Below are positions 1 to 23,900 of a stretch of 64,000 nt of DNA, piece by piece. A model generated the notes under the pieces. It was not told the origin of the DNA. It saw nothing but the letters and a program-made list of their open reading frames with translations, and searched no databases. Position 1 is the first letter of the stretch. Each line of letters starts with the position of its first letter. The DNA lies in the NCBI RefSeq assembly GCF_035918015.1, contig NZ_CP109132.1:744001-808000 (forward strand), given 5' to 3'. Both the position numbers and the translations under genes were made by a program. Source of the stretch: Streptomyces sp. NBC_01754. Its GTDB lineage: Bacteria > Actinomycetota > Actinomycetes > Streptomycetales > Streptomycetaceae.

Positions 1-3000
1 GCTCGGACAGCGGTGCGTCGTCCATGTGCATGGCCGCGTGGACGATGCCGCGCAACAGGTGTCCTGTGGCGTCCACGGTCTCGATCACCCGGCGCAGTGC
101 GGTCTCGTCGGTGACGTCGACGGCGTGGGCGGTGGTGTGTACGCCACGGTCGGTCAGCCGCCGGAGCAGGGCGGGTGCCTCGGGGGTGCCGGGTCCGCGG
201 CGTGAGAGCAGGGCCAGGTGCCGGGCCCCGTGGTCGGCCAGCCAGTGGGCCGTGGCGGCGCCGAGTCCGCTCAGCCCGCCGGTGATCATGTAGGTGCTGT
301 CGTTGTCGAGGACGAGGGTGCCGGGGGCGGGCTCGACGAGGACGGGTTCGTCCAGGGGGTCGAAGCTGATGACGACCTTGCCGGTGTGCCGGGAGTGCTG
401 CAGGAGGTGGAAGGCCTCCTCGACGCGGGCTGCGGGGTAGACCGTGTGGGGCAGCGGCCGGTAGGAGCCGCAGCTGATCTGCTCGTCGAAGACCGAGACG
501 AGACGGGAGCGCAGGGCCGGGGACTCCATGACGGCATCGAGGTTGAAGGCGGTGAAGGTGAGGCTGCGGTGGAAGGGGCGCAGCGTCATCGGGTTGTTGA
601 GGTAGATGTCCCTCTTGCCGAGTTCGATGAACCGGCCGTTGGGACGCAGGAGGTCGAGGTTGTGGGCGATGGCTTCGCCGCTGAGGGAGTTCACCACGAC
701 GTCCACGCCCTGGCCGCCGGTCAGTTCCCGTACCCGCGGGACGAAGTCCAGGCTGCGGGAGTCGAGGACGTGTTCGGCGCCGAGCGTGCGGAGCAGGTCC
801 CGCTTGGTCTCCGTACCGGCGGTGGCGAGGACGCGGGCGCCCTGGTTGCGGGCGCATTGCAGGACGGCCAGGCCCACGGCTCCGGCTCCGCCGTGGACGA
901 GTACGGTCTCCCCGGGGCCGAGGCAGGCCTGGTTGACCAGGGTGTGATGGACGGTCAGGAAGGCGACGGGGAAGGTCGCCGCTTCCGCGAAGCCCATCCC
1001 CTCGGGGATGCGGACCACGGCGGCGGCGGCGGTCGTCGCGTGGGAGGCGAGGGCAGCGGGCACGAGGCCACAGACCCGGTCGCCCGGCTTCAGGCCGTGC
1101 ACACCTGGTCCCACCGCGCGTACGAGGCCGGCGCCGTCCGTGCCCAGCCCCCGGCTGAGGGGGCTGTTCTCCACCGCTTCGGGCGGCAGCAGGCCGTTGG
1201 CCCTCATGGGGTCGCGGTAGTTCAGAGCCACGGCCCGCATCTCCAGGGCCACCTCGCCGGGCCCGGGTTCGGGGATGTCGGTCTGCCGCCAGAGCAGCCG
1301 TCGGTGCAGGCTCGGGTCGCGGGCTTCCAGAATGAACGGCGTGCCGGCGGGCGTGGCGGGGGGCTCGTCCCGCGCGTGCTGGACCTGCCGGGGCACGAAA
1401 CGGCCGTGCGCGGTCAGGACGATCTCGTCCTCCTGGGCGCTCTCGTCGCCGTCGGCGGCGAGGAGTTCCCCCGCAAGACGGTGTGCGTCGGCGGCCGTCG
1501 CCCCGGTGCGTTGCCAGGACAGACGTCGCACGCGCAGGTCGGGGCGCTCGTTGGCGAGTGTGCGGCAGGCCGCCCAGACGGCCGCGTCGTCCGGATGCGT
1601 GGGCCGCTCCGGGGCCGGGAACAGGCCGGTCGGGCGGGTGACGAGCCACAACTGGGGGCTGGTACGGCCGTGGAGGCTGTCGCAGGCTGCGGTCAGGGCG
1701 CGCAGGAGGGCCGCTCGACGGGTGGTCAGGGCGACGGTCTGCCGAGGTGCGGGCTCGGCGAGCAGCAGGACGACGCGCGGCTCGCGGTCGGTGGTCAGCG
1801 CCTCGGCCCAGGCGTCGGCCTCCTCGGAGGCGGCGACGACGGTGGCCTCGCCGAGAAGCACGGCCAGGGCCCGCGCGGTCGGCATCTCGGTGCCGTCCTC
1901 GACGGCGACGATCCAGGAGGCTCCGGGAACCGGTGTCGGTACCCCGGTCTCGGCGGCATGGCCGCGGGTGGCCGCGGCGAGGAGCACGGAACGGTCCTCG
2001 GGCCCGGTCCGCACCGGATCGGGGAAGCCGCAGCGGCGCAGCAGCGGTACCCACTGCTCGCGGGCGATGATGCGGGAGGCGGGGCGCAGGGAGTGGTCGC
2101 CGCGCTCCCAGAAGTCCTCCACCGTGCCGAACAGCAGGGCGTGGAGCTGAGCGTGGTGCTGTTCGGTGGCCAGCAGGTGTCCGCCGGGGGCCAGCACGGT
2201 GTGCAGACGCCGCAGCGTCGCGGCGACGTCATGGGTGGCGTGCAGGGCGTCGCCGGCCAGGACGAGGTCGAAGCCGGCTCGGGGCAGACCCTGGCCGGTC
2301 AGGTCGGTGTTCAGGTCCAGGGTGCGGTGGTCGACGAAATCGTGGCCGCTGAAGCGGTGTTCGGCGCGGGTGAGACCGGCGCCGGTGGCGGCCGCGCAGG
2401 TGTAGCGGGTCCGGTCGGCCGGCAGCACGGGCAGTGCGGCGGCTGTCAGCGCGCAGGTGGTCGCGCCGACTTCCAGGACGCGCAGCGGGCGGTCTGCGGG
2501 CCACCGGGCGACGATGTCGCCGAGAACGGCCTGCACGGCGCGGTGGGTGAAGCGGTGGGCGGGGCCGGTCTCGCGGAGCTGGTCGTACGCGCTGTCCCCC
2601 TGCGGCAGGAGCTCGTGTGCGTCGACGCGGCCCCGCACCACGTCGGCCAGGTGGCGCAGATGCCGGTTGAGGAGCAGTGTCTCGGAGCCGAAGGCGGGGT
2701 GGTCCTCCACCAGGCCGCGCAGCAGTGTCCCGGGACGGAGCTCGGTGTCGGTCAGCTGCCAGGCCGCCTCTCCGACCGGCCGGGCCAGGCCGTGCTCGAC
2801 CAGCAGCGGCATCATCAGCCGCACCAGCCGGCGGTGCTGGGACCGCAGGCCTCCGCTGACCAGGTCGGGCATCGAGAACGGGACCGCCGGGTCGGCGAGA
2901 AGGCCGTGCAGCGTCTCGGCCCAGCAGTGGGCTCCGGTCTGTTCGGCGGCGGCGACGAACCGGTCGTGGCCGCAGTCGTCGAGCGCGGCGCGTGCGGCGG

Positions 3001-6000
3001 TGATGCGGGGCTCAGCGGCGCACACCACCTCGGCGGGAGTGGGAAGCGGAGAGGGGAGGGCGGGGGCGCCTGGGTGCGGGGCGGCCCGCAGAACCGTGCG
3101 CTGGACGGCCAGGGGGGTGTGCTCCGTCATTCCGCCGCGGCGGGTACGGCAGCCGTCGATCTCGACGGTGACCGTGCCGTCCGCGTCGGCGTAGGTGATG
3201 TCCCAGCAGATCTCGTTGGCGCTGCGGCCGCGGCGGCGCAGATGCACGATTCCGGTGGATGCGGGGGTGCGCCACACGCGTACGGACCCGAACACCGTCG
3301 GCAGGAAGCCGGCGGATTCCGCTGTGAGTTCGGACAGGGCCACGGTGGCCTGCAACGGTGCGTCGAGCAGTACCGGGTGGGCGGTGTAGGCGTCGGCGGG
3401 GTGCCGGAGGCGGTAGGAGACCAGTACCTCCGCCTCGCCGATGTCCAGGTGCTCGATGAGCTGGAAGGCCGGCCCGCAGTTCAGTCCGACGCGGTGGCAC
3501 GTCCGGTAGAAGTCCGCACCGTCGAGGGCGTCGTGGCAGCGCGCTCGCAGAGCGTCCGTGTCGAGGGGAGGCGGTGCCGTGCCGAGCAGGGTACGGACCT
3601 GGGCTCGTACGGCGGGCCGGCACTCGCCGCCGTGTTCTTCGCGGACGCTGATGGTCAGGGCGCCGTCGTCGGGGGTGACGGAGGTCTGCAGGGCGATCGG
3701 TGTCGGGTCCGGCCAGGGCAGCGCCAGTGGGCGGCTGATCTCCAGATGGCGTACTTCGACCGGGCGTTCCATGGCGCGGTGGCCGGCGCTCAGAGCCATC
3801 TCCACGTAGGCGGCGGCCGGCATGAGTACGTCGTCCCCGATCTTGTGGTCACCCAGCCAGGGCACCAGCTGGGGTTCGACGGTGCCGTGCCATACGGGGT
3901 GCGGGGCGGGCATCCGCTCGCCCACCAGCGGGTGGTCGAGCGCGCCCGAGCCGCTGGTACGTGCGATGCGGTCCTGCGCGGTGCCGTGCCAGTACCGTTC
4001 GTGCTGCCACGGGTAGGCGGGCAGCTCGGCCACACCGCCGGGGCGGGGGAAGTGAAGCCGCCAGTCGGTGGTCGTGTCGGCGGCGAGCAGCGCGGCGACC
4101 GCGCCCGCGGTCTCGCGGAGGCCGTCCCCGTCCCGGTGCAGGGTCGGGACGTAGGAGACGTCGGTGTGGCGCAGGTAGGGGCGCAGTACCGGGTGCGGGC
4201 CGATCTCGACCACACTGCCGGTGCCCTCGGACAGCAGGTGGGTGACGGCCTCGGCGAAGCGGACCGGTTCGCGGACGTTACGCCACCAGTAGCGGGCGTT
4301 CAGTTCCGGCCCGTTCAGCGGTGTGCCGGTGACGGTGGAGACGAACGGGATTCGTGCGGTGCCGGGGGTGAGGTCTTCCAGAGCGGTGCACAGCGGTTCC
4401 TCGATGGGGTCCATGGCACGGCTGTGGAAGGCGTAGTCCAGGTCCAGCTCGCGGAAGAACACACCCCGTTCGGCCAACTCCCGCCCCCATGAGGCCAGTT
4501 CGCCGGCAGGGCCGGCGACGGTCACGGCCCGGTCGCTGTTGGTTCCGGCGATCTCCAGCGCGCCGTCGCAGCGCAGCAGTTCCTCGCGGGCCTGGTGCTC
4601 GGCCAGACCGACGGCGGCCATGCGGCCCCTGCCCGCGGTGGTGGCCTGGGTGCGGCTGCGTTCGGCGATGACCAGCGCCGCCTGTTGCAGGGTCAGGGCG
4701 CCGGAGGCGTAGGCGGCGGCGACCTCACCGACGCTGTGCCCGGCCACGGCACGCGGCCGCAACCCGTGTGAGGCCAGCAGCGCGGTCAGGCCGACCTGCA
4801 CGACGAACAGGGCGGGCTGGGCGACCTCGGTGCGCTGCCAGGTGGGCGGGGAGGGATGTGCCAGTTCCTTGGCCACCGACCAGCCCAGGTAGGGGGCGAG
4901 GGCGGCGTCGGCCTCCTCGACGGCCGCGCGGAAGACCGTCTCGTGCTCCAGCAGATCCGCGGCCATGCCCGGCCACTGCGAGGCGTTACCGGAATACACG
5001 AAGACGATGCCGCCTTGTGGGTTCCCTCGCACGATCGCCCCGCGGGCGGGCTCGGTGGCCGCCAGCCGCTCCAGCTGCCGGGCGGCGTCCTGCGGGTCGG
5101 CGGCCATGACCGCGGCACGGTGCGGGTGTGCGCTGCGCCGCACCGTACTGGTGTAGGCCAGGTCGTAGAACTCCTCGGGCCGCGCGCCCCGTAAGCGCTC
5201 CGCCATCCCGGTGGCCAGCTGCTTCAGCGCCTTGGGAGAGCGTGCGGAGACGACCAGGGGAAGCGGGCGGTGGCCCGGGGTCCGACCGGTGCCGGGCCGG
5301 GAAGTGGAAGGGGGCGGGGTCAGGACGGCGTGGGCGTTCGCTCCGCCGAAGCCGAAGGCGTTCACACCCACGGCCGCCGCCTGCCCCGGGGGCAGTGGGA
5401 CGGGCTCGACCGTCGGCGACAGCCCGAGGCCGTCGAAGTCGATCGCGGGGTTGAGCGGAAGGGCGTGCAACGACGCGGGGGCGACGCGGTGGCGCAGGAC
5501 CAGGATCGCCTTGAGCAGGCCCGCCATCCCGGAGGCGGGCTCCAGGTGGCCCAGATTGGTCTTCACCGAACCGACCGGCAGCGGACCGCCGCGCCGGTGA
5601 CGGGCCAGCGCCCGGCCGATCGCCTCGGCCTCCGCCGGGTCCCCGACCAGGGTGCCCGTGCCGTGGGCCTCGAAGTACACCAGGTCGTCCGCGCTGATGC
5701 CGGCTTCCGCGTAGACGGCCTCCAGCAGCGCCTCCTGGGCCTCGGCGCTGGGCACGATCATGCCGGTGCTGCGGCCGTCGGTGTTGTTGCCGGTGGCCGC
5801 GAGCACGGCGTGGACGCGGTCCCCGTCGGCCAGTGCGTCCTCGAGACGCTTGAGGACGAGCACCGCGCCGCCTTCCGCGCGGACGAAACCGTCGGCGTCC
5901 GCGGAGAAGGCCGCACAGCGTCCCCGCCGCGACAGCATGCCCGCGTAGGAGAACCCGGCGAAGGAGTAGGGGCTGCTCAGCACATTGACGCCGCCGACCA

Positions 6001-6604
6001 GCGCGACACGGCTGGAACCCTCGCGCAGGGTGCGGCAGGCGCGGTCCACCGCGACCAACGCGGAGGAACAGGCGGTGTCGATGGCCATGCTCGGCCCGCG
6101 CAGGTCGAAGGCGTACGACATCCGGTTCGCCGTGATGGAGAGCGTGGCACCGGGCATGGTGTGCGGACTCTTGTGGTCCTGGAGCAGGGTGAGCGTCGTG
6201 CCGTAGGCGGGGTCGGAGACCCCTACGAAGACGCAGGTGTCCGATCCCGCCAGCGACTCGGCGGGAATCGCCGCGTCGTCGAGCGCCTCCGCGGCCATCT
6301 CCAGGAGGAGTCGCTGCTGCGGGTCGATGTGCCGCGCCTCCGCGGGCGAGATCCCGAAGTAGGCGGCGTCGAAGGAGGCGACGTCCGTGAGGAACCCTCC
6401 GGCAGCGGTGTAACTGCGGCCCGGGCGTACGGCCCCCGGGTCGACCATCCTGTCCCTGGGCAGCCGGTCGGCGGGCATCTCACCGACCATGTCCTTCCCG
6501 TCACGCAGCACGGACCACAGTCCGTCCAGGTCGGTGATGCCTCCGGGAAGCCGGCAACCGACACCCACCACCGCTACGGACCGTCCACGCTGCCGCTCTG
6601 CCAC
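1..6604 (-). CDS. Highly reducing type I polyketide synthase, partial (C-terminus beyond the window)
   Basis: About 2200 residues are visible, starting at a GTG (6604-6602) behind a purine-rich GAGAAGG. Domains in order: KS with active Cys179 in DTACSSA; AT with Ser624 in GHSVGE and a YAFH specificity motif near 724; DH with His920; a C-methyltransferase-like region with its SAM motif near 1375; ER with HGGAGAVGLA near 1910; KR with TGGLSGLG near 2108, cut by the window edge. KS-AT-DH-MT-ER-KR is the order of iterative, fatty-acid-synthase-like reducing PKSs, so I infer repeated use to make a reduced acyl chain. An ACP probably lies off the left edge. Oddities: the DH motif reads HKIGDDVLMP (Asp where the family has Gly) and the MT motif reads VGATTC instead of a GxGxG loop. 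Codon 471 is TTA. The gene is divergent from the ole-like operon, which suggests one pathway. Confidence 0.93.
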   Translation of the reverse strand, partial: MAERQRGRSVAVVGVGCRLPGGITDLDGLWSVLRDGKDMVGEMPADRLPRDRMVDPGAVRPGRSYTAAGGFLTDVASFDAAYFGISPAEARHIDPQQRLLLEMAAEALDDAAIPAESLAGSDTCVFVGVSDPAYGTTLTLLQDHKSPHTMPGATLSITANRMSYAFDLRGPSMAIDTACSSALVAVDRACRTLREGSSRVALVGGVNVLSSPYSFAGFSYAGMLSRRGRCAAFSADADGFVRAEGGAVLVLKRLEDALADGDRVHAVLAATGNNTDGRSTGMIVPSAEAQEALLEAVYAEAGISADDLVYFEAHGTGTLVGDPAEAEAIGRALARHRRGGPLPVGSVKTNLGHLEPASGMAGLLKAILVLRHRVAPASLHALPLNPAIDFDGLGLSPTVEPVPLPPGQAAAVGVNAFGFGGANAHAVLTPPPSTSRPGTGRTPGHRPLPLVVSARSPKALKQLATGMAERLRGARPEEFYDLAYTSTVRRSAHPHRAAVMAADPQDAARQLERLAATEPARGAIVRGNPQGGIVFVYSGNASQWPGMAADLLEHETVFRAAVEEADAALAPYLGWSVAKELAHPSPPTWQRTEVAQPALFVVQVGLTALLASHGLRPRAVAGHSVGEVAAAYASGALTLQQAALVIAERSRTQATTAGRGRMAAVGLAEHQAREELLRCDGALEIAGTNSDRAVTVAGPAGELASWGRELAERGVFFRELDLDYAFHSRAMDPIEEPLCTALEDLTPGTARIPFVSTVTGTPLNGPELNARYWWRNVREPVRFAEAVTHLLSEGTGSVVEIGPHPVLRPYLRHTDVSYVPTLHRDGDGLRETAGAVAALLAADTTTDWRLHFPRPGGVAELPAYPWQHERYWHGTAQDRIARTSGSGALDHPLVGERMPAPHPVWHGTVEPQLVPWLGDHKIGDDVLMPAAAYVEMALSAGHRAMERPVEVRHLEISRPLALPWPDPTPIALQTSVTPDDGALTISVREEHGGECRPAVRAQVRTLLGTAPPPLDTDALRARCHDALDGADFYRTCHRVGLNCGPAFQLIEHLDIGEAEVLVSYRLRHPADAYTAHPVLLDAPLQATVALSELTAESAGFLPTVFGSVRVWRTPASTGIVHLRRRGRSANEICWDITYADADGTVTVEIDGCRTRRGGMTEHTPLAVQRTVLRAAPHPGAPALPSPLPTPAEVVCAAEPRITAARAALDDCGHDRFVAAAEQTGAHCWAETLHGLLADPAVPFSMPDLVSGGLRSQHRRLVRLMMPLLVEHGLARPVGEAAWQLTDTELRPGTLLRGLVEDHPAFGSETLLLNRHLRHLADVVRGRVDAHELLPQGDSAYDQLRETGPAHRFTHRAVQAVLGDIVARWPADRPLRVLEVGATTCALTAAALPVLPADRTRYTCAAATGAGLTRAEHRFSGHDFVDHRTLDLNTDLTGQGLPRAGFDLVLAGDALHATHDVAATLRRLHTVLAPGGHLLATEQHHAQLHALLFGTVEDFWERGDHSLRPASRIIAREQWVPLLRRCGFPDPVRTGPEDRSVLLAAATRGHAAETGVPTPVPGASWIVAVEDGTEMPTARALAVLLGEATVVAASEEADAWAEALTTDREPRVVLLLAEPAPRQTVALTTRRAALLRALTAACDSLHGRTSPQLWLVTRPTGLFPAPERPTHPDDAAVWAACRTLANERPDLRVRRLSWQRTGATAADAHRLAGELLAADGDESAQEDEIVLTAHGRFVPRQVQHARDEPPATPAGTPFILEARDPSLHRRLLWRQTDIPEPGPGEVALEMRAVALNYRDPMRANGLLPPEAVENSPLSRGLGTDGAGLVRAVGPGVHGLKPGDRVCGLVPAALASHATTAAAAVVRIPEGMGFAEAATFPVAFLTVHHTLVNQACLGPGETVLVHGGAGAVGLAVLQCARNQGARVLATAGTETKRDLLRTLGAEHVLDSRSLDFVPRVRELTGGQGVDVVVNSLSGEAIAHNLDLLRPNGRFIELGKRDIYLNNPMTLRPFHRSLTFTAFNLDAVMESPALRSRLVSVFDEQISCGSYRPLPHTVYPAARVEEAFHLLQHSRHTGKVVISFDPLDEPVLVEPAPGTLVLDNDSTYMITGGLSGLGAATAHWLADHGARHLALLSRRGPGTPEAPALLRRLTDRGVHTTAHAVDVTDETALRRVIETVDATGHLLRGIVHAAMHMDDAPLSE

Positions 6605-6755
6605 GTTCCCGCCTTCTCACGCCGATTGCAGACTTCGTGCGGATTGAAAGGCATCACGGGAGCGAAAGCCAACACCGGCCACTCGTTCGGGTGAAGGCCG
6701 CTCAGCGGGCGACTTTTCGGTCCGGCAGGCGGCGCGGCGCCGTTACGGTTGCGCG
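6605..6755. promoter_or_regulatory. Divergent promoter region between the PKS and the ole-like operon
   Basis: This 151-bp spacer is the only non-coding DNA between the two divergent arms, so promoters for both must lie here or inside the genes. On the plus strand a TACGGT at 6744-6749 lies 7 nt before the GTG at 6756 and no clear Shine-Dalgarno precedes that GTG. This would fit a leaderless transcript, but no good -35 box is visible. On the minus strand GAGAAGG precedes the PKS start. Confidence 0.4.
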
Positions 6756-7778
6756 GTGCCCGAACCCGCCCGTGCCCGCATCGCGGCCGTCGCCGCCCAC
6801 TTACCGACTCGTTACCGGACCATGGACGAGATCCGCGAGAAGATCGCCAAGAGCGGAGACTACGCTCCGCCACCCGGCCTACTCGAAGATCTCACCGGAG
6901 TGCGCGGAGTCCATGTGCGAGGAGACGGTGAGAACGCCTCCGACCTCGCCGTGGCAGCCGCCCGCAAGGCACTCGACGAGGCGGGCCTGCGGATCGGTGA
7001 CATCGATCTGCTGCTGTTCGCCGCTACCGCCGCGGACCTGATCGAACCCGCGACCTCACACCTGGTGGCCGCCAAGATGGGCGCCACCTGCCCGGTGTTC
7101 GACGTCAAGAACGCCTGCAACAGCGTCCTCAACGCCATGGAGACGGCCGCTTCGTTCATCGAGACAGGCCGCTACCGCACCGTCCTCATCGTCTGCGGAG
7201 AGGCCGGCTCCCTGGTGACGCGCTGGAACGTCCCCGACCGGCAGGCACTGCTCAGGGCCCTGCCCGGCTACACCGCGTCCGACGCCGGCGCCGCGATGGT
7301 GCTCACCGCCGGACCCGCGGGCGAGGACCGCCCCGGTATCACGGCGATGCGATTCGTCAGCAACTCCGCGGCCTGGGAAGCCTGCACCGTGTCCGGCGGG
7401 GGAACCATGCACCAGCGCTCCGTCCACGACGACCACACCACGCTGCGGCTGAACGGGGACCTGCGCCAGGGGTTGCTCGACGTACTTCCCGAAGCCCTCA
7501 CCGTTGCCGGGGACGAACTCGCCGCGGCACGTGCCGGCGCGTTCGTCGCCTTCCACCAGATCGCCATGCCGCAGTACCGGCAGATGCTCGACACGTTCTC
7601 CCTGCCCGAGAGGCTGTGCATGCCCGCGGTGGCCGAGCACGGCAACTGCGCGGCGGCCTCACTCCCTCTGCAACTGGTCAAGGCCCGGGAAGCCGACCGC
7701 GTGGAGGACGGGGACACCGTGGCGATGATCGGCTTGGCCAGCGGCTTCAGCTTCGGACTGGCCCTCGTCCGATGGTGA
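6756..7778 (+). CDS. oleA: OleA-like thiolase-fold condensing enzyme (KAS III family)
   Basis: 340 residues with the KAS III/OleA triad: Cys121 in KNACNSV, His267 in FHQIA and Asn297 in HGNCAA. OleA enzymes perform a head-to-head Claisen condensation of two fatty acyl thioesters to a beta-keto acid; ordinary FabH also has this triad. I prefer OleA because the next three genes are clear OleB, OleC and OleD types in overlapping order. The start is a GTG; leucine 16 is a TTA codon (6801-6803), so translation probably depends on the bldA tRNA. The stop overlaps the start of the next gene by 7 bp. Acyl donors are not determinable from sequence; the divergent reducing PKS and the downstream ACP suggest at least one acyl-ACP or PKS-bound chain. 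An alternative is a starter-unit or chain-releasing KAS III for the PKS. Confidence 0.8.
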   Translation: MPEPARARIAAVAAHLPTRYRTMDEIREKIAKSGDYAPPPGLLEDLTGVRGVHVRGDGENASDLAVAAARKALDEAGLRIGDIDLLLFAATAADLIEPATSHLVAAKMGATCPVFDVKNACNSVLNAMETAASFIETGRYRTVLIVCGEAGSLVTRWNVPDRQALLRALPGYTASDAGAAMVLTAGPAGEDRPGITAMRFVSNSAAWEACTVSGGGTMHQRSVHDDHTTLRLNGDLRQGLLDVLPEALTVAGDELAAARAGAFVAFHQIAMPQYRQMLDTFSLPERLCMPAVAEHGNCAAASLPLQLVKAREADRVEDGDTVAMIGLASGFSFGLALVRW

Positions 7779-8728
7779 CCACCCGGGCCGGCCGCGCCCC
7801 GGCTCTCACCGCGACGGAACGCGCCACCGCGCTGGAACGGCTGATGCCGGGCTACCCCGCACCCCGGCACTGGCGGCGTGTGCCGGCCACCGGGCAGCAC
7901 TACCTCGACGTCGGCTCCGGGGAGCCGGCGCTGTTCCTGCACGGCAATCCGTCATGGAGCTACGCCTGGCGCAAGCTGGTCGGCAGGCTCTCCCCGCACG
8001 CCCGTTGCCTGGTGCCGGACCTGCCCGGCTTCGGCCTGTCCCGGCACCTGAGGCCGGCCGCCGGGGTCCCGGACCCGTACCAGGTCCAGCTGGAACACCT
8101 GGACACCCTCCACCGGCACCTGGTGCGGGACGAGGGACTGCCCGAGCGGGGCTGGACGCTCGTCCTGCACGACTGGGGCGGTCCCCTCGGCATCGCCTGG
8201 GCTCTGCGGCACCCCGGGGTCGTGGCCCGTCTGGTCATCTGCAACACCGTGGCCTTCCCCTGGCCCGGCGACTTCCGGCTGCCGTTCTACCTGCGCTGGA
8301 TCCGCGACCGCCCGCTGGTGGCCGACGCCGTGCACCTCACCAACGGCTTCGCGCGCACCGCGGTGCGCGCCGGGGTCCACCGGCCACTGCGTCCGGCCGA
8401 GCGCCGGGCCTACCTCCGGCCAGTCGCCCGGCGCGCCGAGCGACTGGCCGTCACCGACGCCGTCCGTGCCATCCCGCGCGACCACACCGATCCCGTGTGG
8501 CGGCTGCTCGAACCTCCCGGCGACGACGCCGGCCCGACCGCGCTGCCCATGCTCATCGGCTGGGGCATGCGCGATCCGGTGTTCACCCCGGCCCTGCTGG
8601 AGGAGTGGGCCCGCCGCTGTCCCCACGCGGCCGTCCACCGTTTCCCCGAGGCCGGACACTTCGTGATGGAGGACGCGGCAGCCGAACTCGGGGACCACAT
8701 CAGTGACTTCCTGCGAGGAACCCGATGA
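7772..8728 (+). CDS. oleB: OleB-like alpha/beta hydrolase (haloalkane dehalogenase family)
   Basis: 318 residues from ATG 7772 (GTG 7775 is equally possible). An oxyanion-hole motif HGNPSW is followed by the nucleophile motif HDWGG (Asp134) rather than the GxSxG of esterases, and a late catalytic His lies in GHFVMED near residue 296. Asp nucleophile plus HDWGG is the haloalkane dehalogenase signature shared by OleB. OleB proteins decarboxylate beta-lactones to cis-olefins, so the end product here could be an alkene rather than a lactone. The gene overlaps oleA by 7 bp and oleC by 4 bp (ATGA), so translational coupling is likely. Whether the enzyme acts on a lactone rather than a halogenated compound is inferred from its neighbours. 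Confidence 0.82.
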   Translation: MVTTRAGRAPALTATERATALERLMPGYPAPRHWRRVPATGQHYLDVGSGEPALFLHGNPSWSYAWRKLVGRLSPHARCLVPDLPGFGLSRHLRPAAGVPDPYQVQLEHLDTLHRHLVRDEGLPERGWTLVLHDWGGPLGIAWALRHPGVVARLVICNTVAFPWPGDFRLPFYLRWIRDRPLVADAVHLTNGFARTAVRAGVHRPLRPAERRAYLRPVARRAERLAVTDAVRAIPRDHTDPVWRLLEPPGDDAGPTALPMLIGWGMRDPVFTPALLEEWARRCPHAAVHRFPEAGHFVMEDAAAELGDHISDFLRGTR

Positions 8729-10302
8729 CCACGACCGCCCCGGGCCTCATCGCCCGCCTGACCGACCAGCCCGACGCCACCGCGCTCATCCGCTGCCGTA
8801 AGGGGACCTCCCGGACGACCAGCCGCGGCCACCTGGTGCGGGGGTGCCACAGCACGGCGCAGGCCCTGTACCGGGCCGGTGTCCGGCCCGGCCACAAGGC
8901 CGTCGTGATGACCCGCGACGCGTACGACCTCACCGCCGTCGCGTACGCCCTGTGCTCTCTGGGCGCCGTACCCGTCCTGATCGAGCCGCGCGCCGAGGTG
9001 CGCCGCTGCCTGCGGGACATCGCGCCGGACGTGTTCATCGGCGAACCGCTGGCCCAGCTCGGACGCCAGGTCCTGGGGTGGGGGCGCCCGCACATCCGCA
9101 TCCCCCTGGTCACCGGACGGCCGCTGCTCGCTCCGGGCCGGCGTCTGGCGACCCGGGCGACGGGCGGCGGTGTCCCGGCTCCGCACCCGCGGGAACCCGA
9201 CGGTGACGCGTTGGCCGTCGTCGCCTTCACCTCCGGTTCCACCGGCCGTCCCAAAGGCGCGGAATACCGCTACGACACCCTGGCGGGACAACTCGACGCG
9301 CTCACCACGCTGCTGGCCCCCCGGCCCGAGGACGTACTCCTCGCGGGGTTCCTTCCGGTGGCGATGCTCGGCCCCCTCCTGGGCCTGACCACCCTCGTCC
9401 CGGCCGTGAACCACCTGTCCCCGGCACGCACCCCGCCGAAGGAACTCGTCGAGCCGATCCTGAGGCACCAGGTCACCAAGATCATCGCCTCGCCCGCCGT
9501 GCTCACCCTGATCGCCGGTCACTGCGCCCGCCACGGCATCACCCTGTCCTCGGTCCGGCAGATCCTCTCCTTCGGCGCCCCGCTGCGTCTTCCCCTCGCC
9601 GAGGCACTGCGCGAGGCCGTGCCGGACGCCACCGAGATCCTCAGCGTCTACGGCGCCACCGAATGCCTGCCCGTCTCCGCCATCGACGACCACGACCTGC
9701 GGGCCTCACGCATCCGGCCGCCGGCCGGGCAGACCGGTACGTGCCTGGGCAGGCCGCTGCCCGGTGTCCACCCCCGGATCCTGGACGCGGACCCCACGGG
9801 GCTCGGCGAGATCGCCGTCGCCGGCCCCACCGTGAGCCCCGGCTACCACGGACGCCCTGACGCGGACGCCGCCACGAAGAGCGTCACCAGCCGTGGCGTA
9901 CTGCACCGCACCGGAGATCTCGGCCGGCTCGACGACCAGGGCCGCCTGTGGTTCCTCGGCCGCAAGGCCCACCTGGTCACCGGTACCGGCTCCGCCCTGA
10001 CCACCGAGGACGTCGAGACCGCGGCCGACACCGCGCCCGGCATTCGCCGCACCGCTCTGGTCGGCGTCGGCACGGCCGGCTGCCAACTGCCCGTCCTGTG
10101 CGTGGAGCCCATGCCTTCCACCCCCCGGGCCGCCGCCCTGGCAGCCGTACGCACCGCTCTGGAGCGCCATCCGGAAGGACACCGCATCGACGTCCTGCTG
10201 CCGCATCCCGGCTTTCCCACCGATCCCCGGCACAACTCCAAGATCGACCGCCCACGGCTGGCGGACTGGGCCGCCGAGCGCCTGCGCGGGAGGACCCGAT
10301 GA
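8725..10302 (+). CDS. oleC: OleC-like AMP-ligase-fold beta-lactone synthetase
   Basis: 525 residues of the adenylate-forming superfamily. The P-loop SGSTGRPKG starts near residue 169, the A5 region reads YGATECLPVS near 309, and the C-terminal lysine motif reads RHNSK near 502. YGATE followed by LPVS, and RHNxK in place of the usual PRTxSGK, are what I recall as distinctive of OleC, which adenylates a beta-hydroxy acid and closes it to a beta-lactone instead of making a CoA ester. ATG 8725 overlaps the oleB stop and has GAGGAA 4 nt upstream. No carrier domain is attached, unlike NRPS or PKS loading domains. The plausible alternative is a fatty acyl-AMP ligase that loads the downstream ACP. 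Confidence 0.83.
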   Translation: MTTTAPGLIARLTDQPDATALIRCRKGTSRTTSRGHLVRGCHSTAQALYRAGVRPGHKAVVMTRDAYDLTAVAYALCSLGAVPVLIEPRAEVRRCLRDIAPDVFIGEPLAQLGRQVLGWGRPHIRIPLVTGRPLLAPGRRLATRATGGGVPAPHPREPDGDALAVVAFTSGSTGRPKGAEYRYDTLAGQLDALTTLLAPRPEDVLLAGFLPVAMLGPLLGLTTLVPAVNHLSPARTPPKELVEPILRHQVTKIIASPAVLTLIAGHCARHGITLSSVRQILSFGAPLRLPLAEALREAVPDATEILSVYGATECLPVSAIDDHDLRASRIRPPAGQTGTCLGRPLPGVHPRILDADPTGLGEIAVAGPTVSPGYHGRPDADAATKSVTSRGVLHRTGDLGRLDDQGRLWFLGRKAHLVTGTGSALTTEDVETAADTAPGIRRTALVGVGTAGCQLPVLCVEPMPSTPRAAALAAVRTALERHPEGHRIDVLLPHPGFPTDPRHNSKIDRPRLADWAAERLRGRTR

Positions 10303-11354
10303 AGGTACTGGTCACCGGGGGCAGCGGCTTCCTGGGTCTGGAGCTCTGCCGGCGGTTGACGGAGCGCGGCATCGCCACGTCCTCTCTCGCCCGCCGCCCC
10401 AGCACCGCGCTGGAACGGCTGGGCGTGCGGCAGCACCTGGGTGACCTCGCCGACGCGCACGCCGTCTCCCGCGCGGTCGCCGGATGCGACGCCGTCATCC
10501 ACAACGCCGCTCTGGCCGGGGTCAGCGGCCCGACGCGGCTCTACTGGGCCACCAATGTCGTCGGCACCCGCAACGTGATCGAACAGTGCCGTACCCACCA
10601 GGTGCGCAGGCTCGTCCACACCTCGACCGCCAGCGTCGCCTTCCGCCCCGGTGGCCTGGAGGGCGTCGCCGAGGACCTCCCTCGTCCTGACGGCCACCTG
10701 GCCGCCTATCCCCGGAGCAAAGCCGCTGCCGAGGCTCTGGTCCTCACGGCCCACAGCCCGGAGCTGGCCACCGTCTCACTGCGTCCGCACATCATCTGGG
10801 GCCCGGGCGACCCCCACTTCGCCCCCGCCCTCGCGCGCGCCGTACGGGCCGGGCGTCTGCTGATGCCCGGCGACGGCGGCAACCTCGTGGACACCACTCA
10901 TCTCCGCACCGCCGCCCACGCCCACCTCCTCGCCCTGGACCGCCTGCGACAGTCACCCGAGGCGGGCGGCCGGGCCTACTTCGTCAGCCAGGACGACCCG
11001 CGCCCCTTGCGTGAGATCGCCGGCCACTTCCTGCGTGCCGCGGGTATCAGCGCCCGCTGGTGCGCCGTCCCACCGCGTCTGGCGACGGCCGCGGCCGCCG
11101 TCAGCGACACATGCCTGCGCACGGTCCGCAGCCCGCGCACCCTGGCCCTGAGCCGCTTCCTGGTGGCGGAACTCCTGCAACCGCACTATTTCGACCTGAC
11201 CGCAGCGCGCCGCGAGCTGTCGTTCGAACCGCCGATCGGATTCGAGGCCGGCCTCGCGGAACTCACCCGGACCGCCCCGTCCGCCTTCGAGGGCAGCTCG
11301 AAGAAAGGAAGGACACCGTGCCCGAAACCTACGACACCCTCCGTTCCGTCCTGA
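10299..11354 (+). CDS. oleD: OleD-like NAD(P)-dependent reductase (extended SDR, 3-beta-HSD type)
   Basis: 351 residues with an N-terminal Rossmann motif TGGSGFLG and a catalytic YPRSK (Tyr-x-x-x-Lys) about halfway. The fold matches the 3-beta-hydroxysteroid dehydrogenase/epimerase group to which OleD belongs. OleD reduces the beta-keto acid made by OleA to the beta-hydroxy acid used by OleC. ATG 10299 overlaps the oleC stop by 4 bp. The 3' end overlaps the following ACP gene by 37 bp, longer than the other junctions, and the last residues are serine-, lysine- and proline-rich and probably unstructured. The order A-B-C-D with overlaps supports a single transcript. Confidence 0.82.
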   Translation: MKVLVTGGSGFLGLELCRRLTERGIATSSLARRPSTALERLGVRQHLGDLADAHAVSRAVAGCDAVIHNAALAGVSGPTRLYWATNVVGTRNVIEQCRTHQVRRLVHTSTASVAFRPGGLEGVAEDLPRPDGHLAAYPRSKAAAEALVLTAHSPELATVSLRPHIIWGPGDPHFAPALARAVRAGRLLMPGDGGNLVDTTHLRTAAHAHLLALDRLRQSPEAGGRAYFVSQDDPRPLREIAGHFLRAAGISARWCAVPPRLATAAAAVSDTCLRTVRSPRTLALSRFLVAELLQPHYFDLTAARRELSFEPPIGFEAGLAELTRTAPSAFEGSSKKGRTPCPKPTTPSVPS

Positions 11355-11578
11355 CCAGCTCCCTCCGTGTCCCCGACGACGTCATCCACCCCGGGGCCAC
11401 GCTGGAGCAACTGGGCCTGGACTCCCTGGCCCTGACGGAGCTGGTACTGATCCTGCACGAACGCTTCGCGGTCAGGATCAGTAAGGAGTACGCCCGTCCC
11501 GGCAGGACCGTCACCGAAGTCGCCGAACACCTCGACGCCCTGCGCGCGGGCGGCACGAGGACGGCGGCACCCTCATGA
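11318..11578 (+). CDS. Acyl carrier protein
   Basis: 86 residues from GTG 11318, preceded by AAGGAAGGA. The phosphopantetheine site is GLDSLALTE with Ser36, the usual position for a free-standing ACP. It begins inside the last 37 bp of the OleD-like gene and its stop overlaps the KAS II start (ATGA). Known ole clusters act on CoA-bound chains, so a carrier protein in this operon suggests that one condensation partner is ACP-bound, perhaps delivered by the KAS II or the divergent PKS. This is inference. Confidence 0.9.
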   Translation: MPETYDTLRSVLTSSLRVPDDVIHPGATLEQLGLDSLALTELVLILHERFAVRISKEYARPGRTVTEVAEHLDALRAGGTRTAAPS

Positions 11579-12801
11579 CGGCGCCCGTCGCCGTCACCGG
11601 TCTCGGTCTGATCACCCCGGGCGGAGAAGGCGCCGACGCCACCTGGAGCGCGGTCTGCCACGGCGTGGGCACCTCGGCCACCGACCCCGTACTCGCCGGC
11701 CTGCCCGTCGACTTCTCCTGCCGTGTGCCTCTCTCGTCCGACGCCCTGGACCAGCGCGTCGGACGGACCGCGTGGCGTATGTCTCGGGACGCGAAACTCG
11801 CGGTGCTCGCCGCCCGCGAGGCCGTACACGACGCCGGCCTCGATCCCCGGACCTGGAACGGCGCCCGGGTCGCCGTCGTCATCGGCCGCGGACTCGGAGC
11901 GGGCGCGGTGCACGAAGAACAGGCCAGGCGCCTGGAGGAACTGGGCGCCGACATGGTCTCGGCGCTCACCATCCCCCAGATCATCCCGAACATGGCGGTC
12001 GGCGAGGTCTCCATCGACCTCAAGGCCCACGGCCCCAGCCTCGCTCCGGCCACCGCCTGCGCCTCCGGCGCCACCGCCGTCGCCGTGGCCCGCGACCTCC
12101 TGGTCTCCGGTCAGTGCGACGTCGCGGTGGCCGGAGGCACGGAAGCGGCGATCAGCCGCTTGGTGACCACCGGCTTCTGGCGTCTGGGCTCCCTGTCCCA
12201 ACGCTCCGACGCGGTCACCGAGGCGTCCCGGCCCTTCGCCGCCGACCGTGACGGTTTCGTCATGGGGGAAGGCGCGGGCGTCCTCGTCCTGGAACGGGTG
12301 GAGCACGCCGCCGCTCGCGGCGCCCGCTCCCGCGCCCGGTTGGCGGGCTGCGGCAGCACCTCGGACGCCCACCACCCCACCGCGCCGGACCCGGGAGCCC
12401 ACGGTGCCGAGTCGGCCCTGCGCGCCGCGCTGGCACAGGCAGGGCTGGCCGCGCACGAGGTCGACCACGTCAACGCGCACGGCACCTCCACCCCGCTCAA
12501 CGACGCCGGGGAGGCCGCTCTGATCGCCCGCGTGCTGCCGCACCGCCCCAGCGTCACCGCGCCCAAGGGCGTGCTCGGCCACAGCCTGGGCGCGGCGGGA
12601 GCCGTCGAGGCGGCGCTGACCGTACTCGCCGTCGAGCACCGTACAGCGCCACCGATCGCCAACCTGCGAGCTCCGGCACCCGAGTTCGACATCGACTGTG
12701 TCACCGAACGGCCACGCGGGCAGGACATCCGCGTAGCCGTCAGCCATTCCTTCGGCTTCGGCGGCCACAACGTCGTCCTCGCACTGGTCAGGGCTTCCTG
12801 A
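11575..12801 (+). CDS. Beta-ketoacyl-ACP synthase II (KAS II)
   Basis: 408 residues with the full Cys-His-His triad: Cys162 in ATACASG, His302 in NAHGTS and His336 in GHSLGAAG, followed by FGFGGHN near the C-terminus. The active-site Cys rules out a chain-length factor, and no partner chain-length factor is adjacent, so this is not a canonical type II aromatic PKS pair. It most likely elongates a chain on the ACP encoded immediately upstream. It is the last gene of the six-gene operon; a large hairpin follows its stop. Confidence 0.9.
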   Translation: MTAPVAVTGLGLITPGGEGADATWSAVCHGVGTSATDPVLAGLPVDFSCRVPLSSDALDQRVGRTAWRMSRDAKLAVLAAREAVHDAGLDPRTWNGARVAVVIGRGLGAGAVHEEQARRLEELGADMVSALTIPQIIPNMAVGEVSIDLKAHGPSLAPATACASGATAVAVARDLLVSGQCDVAVAGGTEAAISRLVTTGFWRLGSLSQRSDAVTEASRPFAADRDGFVMGEGAGVLVLERVEHAAARGARSRARLAGCGSTSDAHHPTAPDPGAHGAESALRAALAQAGLAAHEVDHVNAHGTSTPLNDAGEAALIARVLPHRPSVTAPKGVLGHSLGAAGAVEAALTVLAVEHRTAPPIANLRAPAPEFDIDCVTERPRGQDIRVAVSHSFGFGGHNVVLALVRAS

Positions 12802-20789: not shown

Positions 20790-20972
20790 CAGGGTCAGAG
20801 CCTGGTACCTCTTCGGCCGGCGGGTCCGGTTCCGTCGATGCCGAGGTGTTCGACCGGTGTGCCCGGACTCCTCGTCCGACGGGGACCGCAGGCGGACCAC
20901 CACCGCTCCCGTGCCCGGTGCGCCTATCGTGACCACCGGCAACTCCCGTATCCAGAGAAAGCGTTCATCCTG

Positions 20973-23900
20973 GTGACAGCGCACGTGACCGCCCTGCGTC
21001 CTCTGCCGGACCTGCTCCGCGAGCATGCCCGGCGCCTCGGTACCAAGACCGCCTTCCAGGACGGCCGTTGCGGTGTGACCTACGGGGAGCTGGAACTGCG
21101 GACCGGCCGGCTCGCGGGGCATCTCGTCGGCCTCGGTCTGCGTCACGGCGCGCGAGTGGCGATCCTTCTGGGCAGCCGGGTGGAGGCCGTCGAGAGCGTG
21201 CTCGCCGTCGTCAGGGCGGGCGCGGTCGGTGTGCCGATGGATCCGCGGAGCACCACCTCCGAGTTGGCGCACCTGCTGGACGACAGCGGAGCCCTGGTCG
21301 TCTTCACCGACCGGTCCTCCCTGGGCCAGTTGCTGCCGTTGCTGCCGGAGCGCCCCCGGCTGAGCGTGGTGCTCGTCCAGGACGCCGCTACGCGAGGCGG
21401 ATCCCCGGCAGCGGGGGCGAGTGGCGGCCCGGCCGACGAAGCAGGCATGTTCCGCTACGAGTCCCTGGCCGCCACCGAGCCGCCCGGGCCGGCTCCGGAC
21501 GACCTCGGGCTCGACGAGGTGGCCTGGCTCCTCTACACCTCCGGGTCGACCGGCCGGCCCAAGGGGGTGCTGTCCACCCAGCGCAACCGGCTGTCTTCGG
21601 TGGCGTCCGGCTTCGTCGCCGTCCTCGGCCTGACGGCTGACGACCGCCTGCTCTGGCCCCTCCCCCTTCACCACGCCCTGGGGCAGCTCCTGTGCGTCCT
21701 CGGGGTGACCGCGACCGGAGCGTCCGCCGTGCTCCTGCCGCGGTTCTCCGTGACGGACGTCCTGGGTGAACTACGACGGACCGACGCCCCGTTCACGCTG
21801 CTGGCCGGTGTCCCGGCGACGTACGCCAAACTCCTCGACGCCGTGGGCGACGGCGGGCTGGGGACGCCGGCGCTGCGTGGCTGCGTCAGCGGGGGCGCGG
21901 CCGCCACTCCCGCTTTCCAGCGGGCGTTCGAGGAAGTCTGCCGGGTTCCGTTCCTCGATCACTACGGAAGCACCGAGGCGGGGCCCGTCACCATGACGGC
22001 GCCGGGTGCCGCCCGGGTGGCCGGCTCCTGCGGCCGTGTGCTGCCGGGCATGCGGGCACGTATCGGCGACGGAGGCGGCGCCGAAGCCACGGGCGAGGGC
22101 GAGTTGTGGGTCTCCGGGCCCGGTGTCATGGCCGGGTACCACCAACGGTCCGACGACACCGCCGAGGTGCTGCGCGACGGGTGGTACCGCACCGGCGACC
22201 TGGCCCGGATCGACGAAGCCGGTGAGATCACCCTCACCGGCCGGGTCAGCGAGCTGATCGTCCGGGCCGGGAAGAACATCCATCCCTCCGAAGTGGAGGC
22301 GGTACTGCTGGCGCTGCCGGGAATCCAGGACGCCGCCGTCACCGGCCTTCCGGACGACGCGGTCGGGGAGATCCCGGCCGCCTATCTGGTCCCGGTGGAC
22401 GACGGAGTCCTGGACAGAGGGAAGATCCTCGCCGCGTGCCGGGAACGCCTCTCACCGTTCAAGGTGCCCGCCGCCCTCTACGAGGTGGACGCGATCCCTC
22501 GTACCGCCTCGGGCAAGATCAGGCGGTACGCGCTCGAAGAACTGTCCGCGCGCCCGCTGCCGTCCGGAGCCCTCACGCCGACTGATGCGGCGACGGTGGA
22601 CCTGACGACTCTGGTGCGGACCGAGGTCGCCGCCGTGCTCGGCTGCGCCGTGGACGAGGTCGAGCAGGGCATCGCGTTCCGGGACCTGGGGCTGGACTCG
22701 TTGACGTCGACGGTGCTGTGCACCCGTCTGTCGGCGGCGACCGGTCTCCCGCTGTCCGAGGCCGCGCCCTTCGACTTCCCCACCACGGCCGAGCTCGCCG
22801 CGCACCTTCGCTCGCGGCTCACCGGCGGGACGGCGACTGCCACGCCCAGCCGTCCGGAAGGGGCGGGCACCGACGAGGACCCCGTGGTCGTCGTCGCCAT
22901 GGCGTGCCGCTTCCCCGGCGGTGTGGAGACCCCCGAGGACCTGTGGCGGCTCGTCGAAGACGGCGTCGACGCCATCACCCCCTTCCCCACCGACCGGGGG
23001 TGGGACGTGGACGGGCTGTACGACCCGGACCCCGGGCGGTCAGGCCGTACCTACGTACGTGAGGGAGGCTTCCTGTCCGGTGTCGACCGCTTCGACCCGG
23101 CCTTCTTCGGGATCTCGCCCCGCGAGGCCCTGGCCATGGATCCGCAGCACCGGTTGCTGCTCGAAGTCGCCTGGGAGGCCTTCGAGCACGCGGGGATCGA
23201 TCCCAGCACGGTGCGTGGCACGCCCACCGGTGTGTACGCCGGACTCATGTACAGCGACTACGCCGACCGTCTCACCCGCACACCGGAACGGGTGGAGGGC
23301 TACCTCGGCATCGGCAACGCGGGCAGCGTCGCCTCCGGCCGTATCGCCTACACGCTGGGCCTGGAGGGGCCGGCGGTCACCGTGGACACGGCGTGCTCCT
23401 CGTCACTGGTGGCCCTGCACCTGGCAGCCCAGGCCCTGCGCAGGGGCGAGTGCTCGCTGGCGCTCGCCGGAGGCGTCACCGTGATGACGGCACCCCGCTC
23501 CTTCGTCGAGTTCAGCAGGCAGCGCGCGCTCGCCGCCGACGGCCGCTGCAAGGCGTTCGGGGCGGGGGCGGACGGCACCGGCTGGGCCGAGGGTGCGGGA
23601 ATGCTGCTGATGACCCGGCTGTCGGAGGCCCGACGGGCCGGCTACCCGGTCCTGGCCGTGGTGCGCGGTTCCGCGGTGAACCAGGACGGTGCGAGCAACG
23701 GCCTGACCGCGCCGCACGGGCCGGCGCAGCAACGGGTGATCCGTCAGGCCCTGGCCGACGCGCGGCTGGCACCCGCCGAGATCGACGCGGTGGAGGCGCA
23801 CGGCACGGGCACCCGGCTCGGTGACGTCATCGAGGCGGAGGCGTTCCTGGAGACCTTCGGACAGGCCGGTTCACGAGAACACCCGCTGTGGCTGGGCTCG

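Follow-up and report, generated by a model that had tools for sequence, protein, structure and literature searches.

A reducing polyketide synthase divergently paired with oleABCD in Streptomyces: a predicted olefin pathway

We analyzed a stretch of 64,000 nucleotides from Streptomyces sp. NBC_01754 (contig NZ_CP109132.1), hereafter the window (C1:744001-808000 within a 7.77 Mb genome). In this window, the gene for a single-module reducing type I polyketide synthase (PKS) is divergent from an operon encoding OleA-, OleB-, OleC- and OleD-type proteins, a stand-alone acyl carrier protein (ACP) and a β-ketoacyl-ACP synthase II (KAS II). This arrangement is best explained by a pathway dedicated to olefin formation that draws its chain from an iterative PKS, a reading that, as predicted from the genes, is fairly probable. 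The gene system is real and conserved, and where enzyme families are concerned the mechanism predicted for it has good support. The features are as follows (window coordinates).

1 to 6604, minus strand: PKS, single-module reducing type I, KS-AT-DH-cMT-ER-KR-ACP, 2458 aa, with its 3' end outside the window (Pfam, full frame, motifs)
6605 to 6755, no strand: divergent promoter region of 151 bp common to the PKS and oleA (alignment of 16 intergenic regions)
6756 to 7778, plus strand: oleA, OleA-type thiolase (head-to-head condensing), 340 aa, with Glu97, Cys121, His267 and Asn297 (Pfam, NCBIfam, alignment, tree)
7772 to 8728, plus strand: oleB, OleB-type β-lactone decarboxylase, an alpha/beta hydrolase of the haloalkane dehalogenase group, with Asp133, Asp267 and His295 (Pfam, NCBIfam, alignment)
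8725 to 10302, plus strand: oleC, OleC-type β-lactone synthetase (AMP-forming), 525 aa, with SGSTG, YGATE and RHNSK (Pfam, NCBIfam, alignment)
10299 to 11354, plus strand: oleD, OleD-type 2-alkyl-3-oxoalkanoate reductase, 351 aa, with Ser109, Tyr137 and Lys141 (Pfam, NCBIfam, alignment)
11318 to 11578, plus strand: acp, stand-alone ACP, 86 aa, with GLDSL (motif, Pfam, NCBIfam)
11575 to 12801, plus strand: kas2, KAS II (FabF-like), with Cys162/His302/His336 intact (Pfam, NCBIfam, alignment, tree)

Each of the six plus-strand genes (oleA-oleB-oleC-oleD-acp-kas2) overlaps its successor. All seven genes were found where the original prediction had placed them, in the order it gave and overlapping, and the motifs it named were correct. 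Its gene set stood but its limits did not: the PKS reading frame continues to window position -772, 773 bases past the window edge (genome C1:743229), and the operon ends at kas2, after which a protein kinase gene comes next.

The pairing of the PKS with OleA was examined in the best 80 of 222 OleA relatives from a scan of genome contigs, which represent 78 distinct loci. A divergent PKS reading frame lay within 700 bp of OleA at 32 loci, and L018, with a broken frame detected as a PKS by tblastn, brought the total to 33 of 78. Because so many loci have a PKS divergent beside OleA, the arrangement is not a matter of chance. The PKS-linked loci of this set are Streptomyces records exclusively. 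Among 295 genomes drawn evenly from the genus of the window, its own included, a close OleA (at least 59% identity; next match 50%) was present in 13, and all 13 had a divergent PKS KS at a distance of 147-236 bp between the matches. The PKS-OleA tie is conserved and the system is rare. The original prediction, in which head-to-head chemistry of the Ole type is coupled to a reducing PKS, is supported by these counts (13/13 genomes; 33/78 loci), and the synteny check proposed with it found the PKS retained beside OleA.

Twelve of the 33 PKS-OleA loci carry oleB, oleC, oleD, acp and kas2 (11 and L018). Seven with sufficient flank have oleBCD and no acp or kas2 (L026, L028, L029, L030, L031, L035, and L051), and five end at contig ends (L017, L022, L023, L025, and L027). 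Species with ACP and KAS II include S. halstedii and S. griseoaurantiacus, and S. coeruleorubidus is one that lacks them. When the 13 full-operon loci, window included, are compared pairwise, just 13 of 78 pairs have any flanking gene in common, and the loci form six groups without a common flanking gene in the stretches compared; the PKS-ole set moves as a block. Three plasmid records had an OleA match, of which one is close (67%); this 2.8 Mb linear record carries the PKS and oleABCD, with no ACP or KAS II behind oleD. At L033 (1-3069), the PKS beside OleA is split by a 381-aa gene that resembles, by eye, a TnpB-type transposon protein.

The best NCBIfam model for the window OleA was PRK09258, and the closest solved sequences were Xanthomonas campestris OleA entries. 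Window Glu97 aligned with the Gln position of chain 5vxf_A, named OleA E117Q. This Glu is described as removing a proton from the OleA-bound acyl chain (PMC4578411). Glu, Cys, His and Asn were invariant in all 77 OleA rows, consisting of the window and 76 relatives labelled OleA with a length of 280 aa or more. One Pfam family recovered eight KAS III proteins from the genome, and the seven besides OleA all lacked the Glu. In a tree with several long end branches (tool warning), the OleA-like proteins, including X. campestris OleA, were split from these seven (100/99). A FabH-type starter KAS III would group with the other KAS III of the genome and lack the Glu, and the window OleA does neither; the tree check proposed in the original prediction thus did not refute its OleA assignment. 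The predicted OleA structure (mean predicted local distance difference test score, pLDDT, 89) had X. campestris OleA as its top PDB fold match. FabH entries scored nearly as high in the fold search, and since the fold alone cannot separate the two, the assignment rests on the Glu residue and the tree. Ole chemistry is very likely on this evidence. A protein database lists a close OleA (82%) and OleC (73%) for Kitasatospora viridis. Two of the KAS III proteins of the genome are identical (C1:282071 and C1:7456455; L004 and L005), lying approximately 282 kb from each contig end in opposite orientation, which suggests long terminal inverted repeats.

The genes oleA, oleB, oleC and oleD are all present together, as in the OleABCD olefin pathway. 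The top NCBIfam model for OleD was the OleD model NF042422 (326 bits vs. a curated cut-off of 580). OleC, for which the comparison was with family models only, matched PRK09274 best (403 bits), followed by the olefin β-lactone synthetase model NF045786 (370 bits vs. a cut-off of 900). The OleC model and the second OleD model are, by name, Xanthomonas and Shewanella enzymes, and the scores below cut-off are therefore read as those of a divergent branch of the Ole family. The checked residues of OleB, which we take to be the Asp nucleophile, the acid and the His, were invariant in 26 of 26 rows, as was the Ser/Tyr/Lys set of OleD in 56 of 56. OleC residues S170, E313, D398, R413 and K506 were present in all 64 rows; H503 (of RHN) was conserved in 28 and Y181 in 27 of them, the remainder having other residues or gaps. 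A close OleC (75%) occurs in S. ambofaciens ATCC 23877, and a search of 41 near relatives for OleC at E 1e-60 returned only the genome of the window and one 40% match. At L176 (2053-6707), OleD is flanked by two OleB-like hydrolases, beside OleC and a PKS end.

Pfam identified KS, AT, DH, methyltransferase, ER and KR domains in the PKS, and its C-terminal end has the ACP motif DFGLDSLLGM. No thioesterase was seen across the full 2458 aa. The protein thus carries one KS-AT-DH-(MT)-ER-KR-ACP set, as a single-module reducing PKS does, and this lone full module suggests that it is used iteratively. The window PKS has the motifs DTACSSA/AHGTGT/NLGH in KS, GHSVGE and YAFH in AT, and GLDSL in ACP; YAFH is presumably of the malonyl type. 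The motifs of KS, AT, ER, KR and ACP appeared intact across 28 PKS rows, and in the DH motif HxxxGxxxxP the window and several relatives have Asp in place of Gly. The S-adenosylmethionine (SAM) motif of the methyltransferase is degenerate in the window PKS (GATTCA, acidic residue absent), which thus lacks the intact SAM-binding motif of a C-methylating reducing PKS; GAGTGG with TDVS occurred in only 3 of the 28 rows (L032, L035, and L051). The methyltransferase domain is probably inactive, and because of the degenerate motif an unbranched chain is expected in the window type. The methyl branching that the original prediction had suggested as a possibility is not supported, and a methyl-branched chain was rejected as the default because the motif is degenerate in the window and most of the 28 rows.

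We searched for relatives of the PKS by its KS domain. At E 1e-150, 53 places were found in 36 of the 295 genomes, 13 OleA-linked and 40 not beside OleA. In a tree of 66 KS rows, 34 OleA-linked PKSs and L184 formed one side of a branch against 31 others (100/98). This tree omits eight of the 40 places not beside OleA (L191, L216, L221, L222, L224, L229, L230, and L234), as well as L018, L033 and the second PKS of L044, in which the KS start was unrecognizable or too short. A smaller tree, which omits L174 and L177 as copies of L036 and L032, separated 33 rows from 13 (100/99).

As release partners, genes similar to the L179 reductase or the L178 thioesterase were sought up to 2.5 kb from each PKS, or as far as the sequence extended. 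Seventeen of the 40 related PKSs without OleA had the reductase and three more had the thioesterase (20/40). The reductase was divergent from the PKS start, in the slot of OleA, in nine (L178, L179, L180, L181, L187, L211, L212, L213, and L214; L179 and L211 are near copies). Pfam confirmed five reductases (PF07993) and one thioesterase (PF00975), the remainder being assigned by similarity. Neither partner was found within 2.5 kb of any of the 32 OleA-clade PKSs (distinct frames longer than 1500 aa), including two not beside OleA, L184 and the second PKS of L044. Because no reductase or thioesterase lies near the OleA-clade PKSs, unlike 20 of their 40 relatives, OleA probably unloads the PKS; use of the PKS chain by OleA is likely. 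The contrast in release partners is one of proportion, and the pattern may be read as an exchange of release enzymes. Single-module reducing PKSs of Streptomyces that are accompanied by a thioester reductase (among them L178-L182, L187, and L211-L214) belong to the same PKS family as that of the window, L178-L182 and L187 being 56-63% identical to it over the best-matching stretch. They differ in having a PF07993-type reductase in the position of OleA or elsewhere beside the PKS. To our knowledge, they have no known product.

The top NCBIfam model for the window KAS II was FabF, and the triad Cys162/His302/His336 was kept in 24 of 24 rows. Because this triad is intact, KAS II is read as a condensing enzyme, not a chain-length factor, and by their sequences both the stand-alone ACP and KAS II look active. 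A search for KAS II covered 11 genomes. In eight of them (L026-L031, L035, and L051), the search turned up no close KAS II anywhere in the genome; the best matches were 54, 55, 49 and 46% in four, and the other four had no match at E 1e-90. L013 and L040, which served as controls, returned their own KAS II (88 and 90%), and the maximum in the L036 genome was 62%. OleA, ACP and KAS II also occur together without this PKS nearby, as in L039, where an acyl-ACP desaturase lies between ACP and KAS II. This co-occurrence hints that ACP and KAS II give OleA an acyl-ACP.

Several gene arrangements related to this set were observed. L039 (6023-13843) is a single run of oleB-oleC-oleD-oleA-ACP-acyl-ACP desaturase-KAS II without the PKS of this set. 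A cassette of OleA, ACP and KAS II without oleBCD recurs in Streptomyces (L045, L056, L060, L069, L072, L073, L076, and L079), accompanied by AurF and MMPL genes that Pfam confirmed in L045; several of the other loci seem by eye to have similar genes. L065 and L190 encode a fusion of aldehyde dehydrogenase and P450 (Pfam; 973-980 aa), followed by an apparent ACP and AMP-ligase; it adjoins OleABCD-KAS II in L065 and a paralogous reducing PKS in L190.

We propose the following pathway. The PKS would build a reduced acyl chain on its own ACP, iteratively and from malonyl units. With no thioesterase or reductase to free this chain, OleA would take it from the PKS and, judging from its membership in the OleA family and the conserved Glu, join it head to head with a second acyl thioester without decarboxylation. 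The second chain would come from the fatty-acid pool; in operons of the window type, it would probably be elongated and presented by KAS II and the stand-alone ACP. Following the Ole pathway, OleD would then reduce the β-keto acid, OleC would close the β-lactone and OleB would remove CO2, giving an internal alkene, probably cis, with two unlike arms. Because OleB is present with its catalytic residues intact, an olefin is likelier than a β-lactone, and we consider it the probable end product; of the two products named in the original prediction, the olefin is favored and the β-lactone is less likely as the final one. That ACP and KAS II supply the condensation partner is tentative. Of the proposal that a PKS- or ACP-bound chain is one partner, the PKS coupling was upheld, and the role of ACP and KAS II is uncertain. 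More tentative still is the full scheme, in which OleA offloads the iterative PKS and cross-couples the PKS-ACP chain with a KAS II-elongated chain on the operon ACP, giving polyketide-fatty acid hybrid olefins with unlike arms, and release enzymes of this PKS family have been swapped at one promoter slot.

Several observations weigh against the PKS-fed olefin pathway. In fold alignments, OleA shares 26-28% identity with the OleA chains of X. campestris, and the matches of OleA (148 bits), OleC and OleD are all under the NCBI curated cut-offs. Both acp and kas2 are missing from seven oleABCD loci that have sufficient flank. In the KAS II tree, the window type did not form a sister group with the KAS II proteins from other loci that combine OleA, ACP and KAS II. 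An ancestral OleA-ACP-KAS II module is unsupported by this tree, and because the window type is set apart, the pairing of OleA with ACP-KAS II arose repeatedly or was reshuffled. Half of the related PKSs without OleA (20/40) have neither release partner, so lacking a release partner does not set the OleA clade apart. Finally, at 9 of the 33 PKS-OleA loci, oleA stands alone beside the PKS with no oleBCD behind it. OleC was found elsewhere in the genome (E < 1e-190) for six of these nine, and none stood out in the genomes of L032, L033 and L042. In favor of the coupling, five of the oleA-alone genomes have oleC within approximately 4 kb of a PKS 3' end: directly at it in L038, L043 and L044, approximately 3.5 kb off in L036, and on another contig in the genome of L037. 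In the genome of L041, OleC is approximately 40 kb away.

Four other explanations were considered. A persistent β-lactone, as in lipstatin and nocardiolactone, would need only OleA, OleC and OleD, with OleB slow, differently used or protective. Clusters without oleB are reported to make lactones (PMC7064751), and the best-80 set contains loci of Streptomyces and Actinomadura with OleA and OleC-/OleD-like proteins and no OleB-like match. This explanation is unlikely, given that oleB sits in the operon with its checked residues intact in every row. Less likely again is a PpyS-like or ketone-forming OleA, which would join the PKS chain and a second chain into an α-pyrone, or into a ketone after spontaneous CO2 loss. 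The Glu base is described as common to PpyS and OleA (PMC4578411), and the three oleA-alone genomes in which no OleC was found suggest that OleA and the PKS may stand without the rest; in the window, however, oleBCD overlap oleA and appear intact.

The same three genomes, together with OleABCD and KAS II without this PKS nearby in L039 and L065, favor the view that the PKS and the ole operon are neighbors sharing a promoter and making two separate products. We regard this as equally improbable, as the 13/13 pairing in the genus sample, the single clade of OleA-linked PKSs, the lack of a reductase or thioesterase near them and the differing flanks among loci all argue against it. RedP/RedQ/RedR is a starter fatty acid synthase family, and KAS III, ACP and KAS II could form such a synthase, with OleBCD and the PKS separate. 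ACP/KAS II pairs beside an apparently ordinary KAS III (by eye) in the related genomes L195, L200 and L201 are consistent with this, but the window enzyme has the Glu base and falls with OleA in the tree, away from KAS III, and other PKS-OleABCD loci lack ACP and KAS II. This is the least probable of the four, and the olefin pathway fed by the PKS is preferred.

We compared the predicted pathway with known systems. The nearest precedent is the polyunsaturated fatty acid (PUFA) synthase Pfa with OleABCD, in the hentriacontanonaene pathway of Shewanella and Photobacterium (PMC6463001). That paper reports that pfa and ole operons are adjacent in Photobacterium profundum SS9, and that fadD-less E. 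coli expressing Pfa synthase and OleA made a 31:8 ketone; its authors concluded that the OleA substrate is taken from the ACPs of Pfa synthase. In the Pfa system, as is predicted for the window, a multidomain PKS or fatty acid synthase feeds OleA and OleBCD finish the olefin. The Pfa system uses 16:4 chains and a five-gene synthase (PMC6463001), whereas the window has a single-protein KS-AT-DH-cMT-ER-KR-ACP PKS, a divergent promoter shared with it, an extra ACP and KAS II in the operon, and actinobacterial genes. The principle proposed for the window would be that of the Pfa system, which belongs to a different lineage and uses a different synthase.

X. campestris OleABCD shares the four gene types, and its OleA Glu117 corresponds to window Glu97 with Cys/His/Asn aligned; sequence identity to the window proteins is low and under the NCBI cut-offs. 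It is fed by fatty acyl-CoA, and the portion of PMC7064751 available names no PKS, ACP or KAS II in its gene region. That portion names three gene contexts for the OleA proteins expressed, none with a PKS; one, OleA-glycosyltransferase-OleC-P450-OleD, resembles L048 by eye. The window differs from the lipstatin and nocardiolactone clusters in having oleB. We know of no PKS partner of this kind in those clusters. They share OleA-, OleC- and OleD-type enzymes of actinomycetes and are described without oleB, the lipstatin OleA being the LstA/LstB heterodimer (PMC7064751). The jawsamycin/fuelimycin iterative PKSs were rejected as the nearest system, being described as KS-AT-DH-ACP with a separate KR, a cyclopropanase and, in fuelimycin, a thioesterase (PMC13389473). 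No actinomycete reducing PKS with oleABCD was described among the matches listed from the open PMC literature, subscription journals and preprints being outside this scope. The original prediction knew of no described system with this gene set, which agrees with these matches; the Pfa/OleABCD system, which it did not name, lessens the novelty of the principle (PMC6463001).

The divergent promoter contains the near-palindrome CACTCGTTCGGGTG (6680-6693), conserved in part among the 16 aligned intergenic regions. It was rejected as a regulon operator, as it showed no genome-wide excess (12 matches with at most one mismatch vs. 9 for the reversed control). Past the PKS end are an FG-GAP repeat gene and a type I-E CRISPR-cas locus, left of the window, with Cas3, Cse1 and CT1975 (L009 10815-18248; Pfam). 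Beyond these CRISPR-cas genes, approximately 13 kb past the PKS end, is a PUFA-synthase-like cluster (C1:711645-730121; L210 5645-19988 and L009 1-6121). It encodes two large proteins, one KS-AT-ACP-KR-DH and one with KS and three FabA-like stretches, together with a PfaD-like protein, a thioester reductase and a wax ester synthase/DGAT-like protein. A second PKS in the window (20859-29399, plus strand, 2846 aa) has the order AMP ligase-ACP-KS-AT-DH-KR-ACP-thioesterase, and an Rfam ASpks match (23832-23906) is antisense to it.

The seven-gene set has natural variants, with or without ACP and KAS II and with an intact or degenerate methyltransferase; therefore, the source of the two OleA substrates, acyl-CoA or acyl-ACP, is directly testable. 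If the proposal is true, swapping a thioester reductase and OleA in one promoter slot would change the class of product, so that hydrocarbons are made in place of aldehydes or alcohols. It would also mean that actinobacteria have a way to make hydrocarbons with an iterative PKS, in which the release step is a head-to-head condensation.

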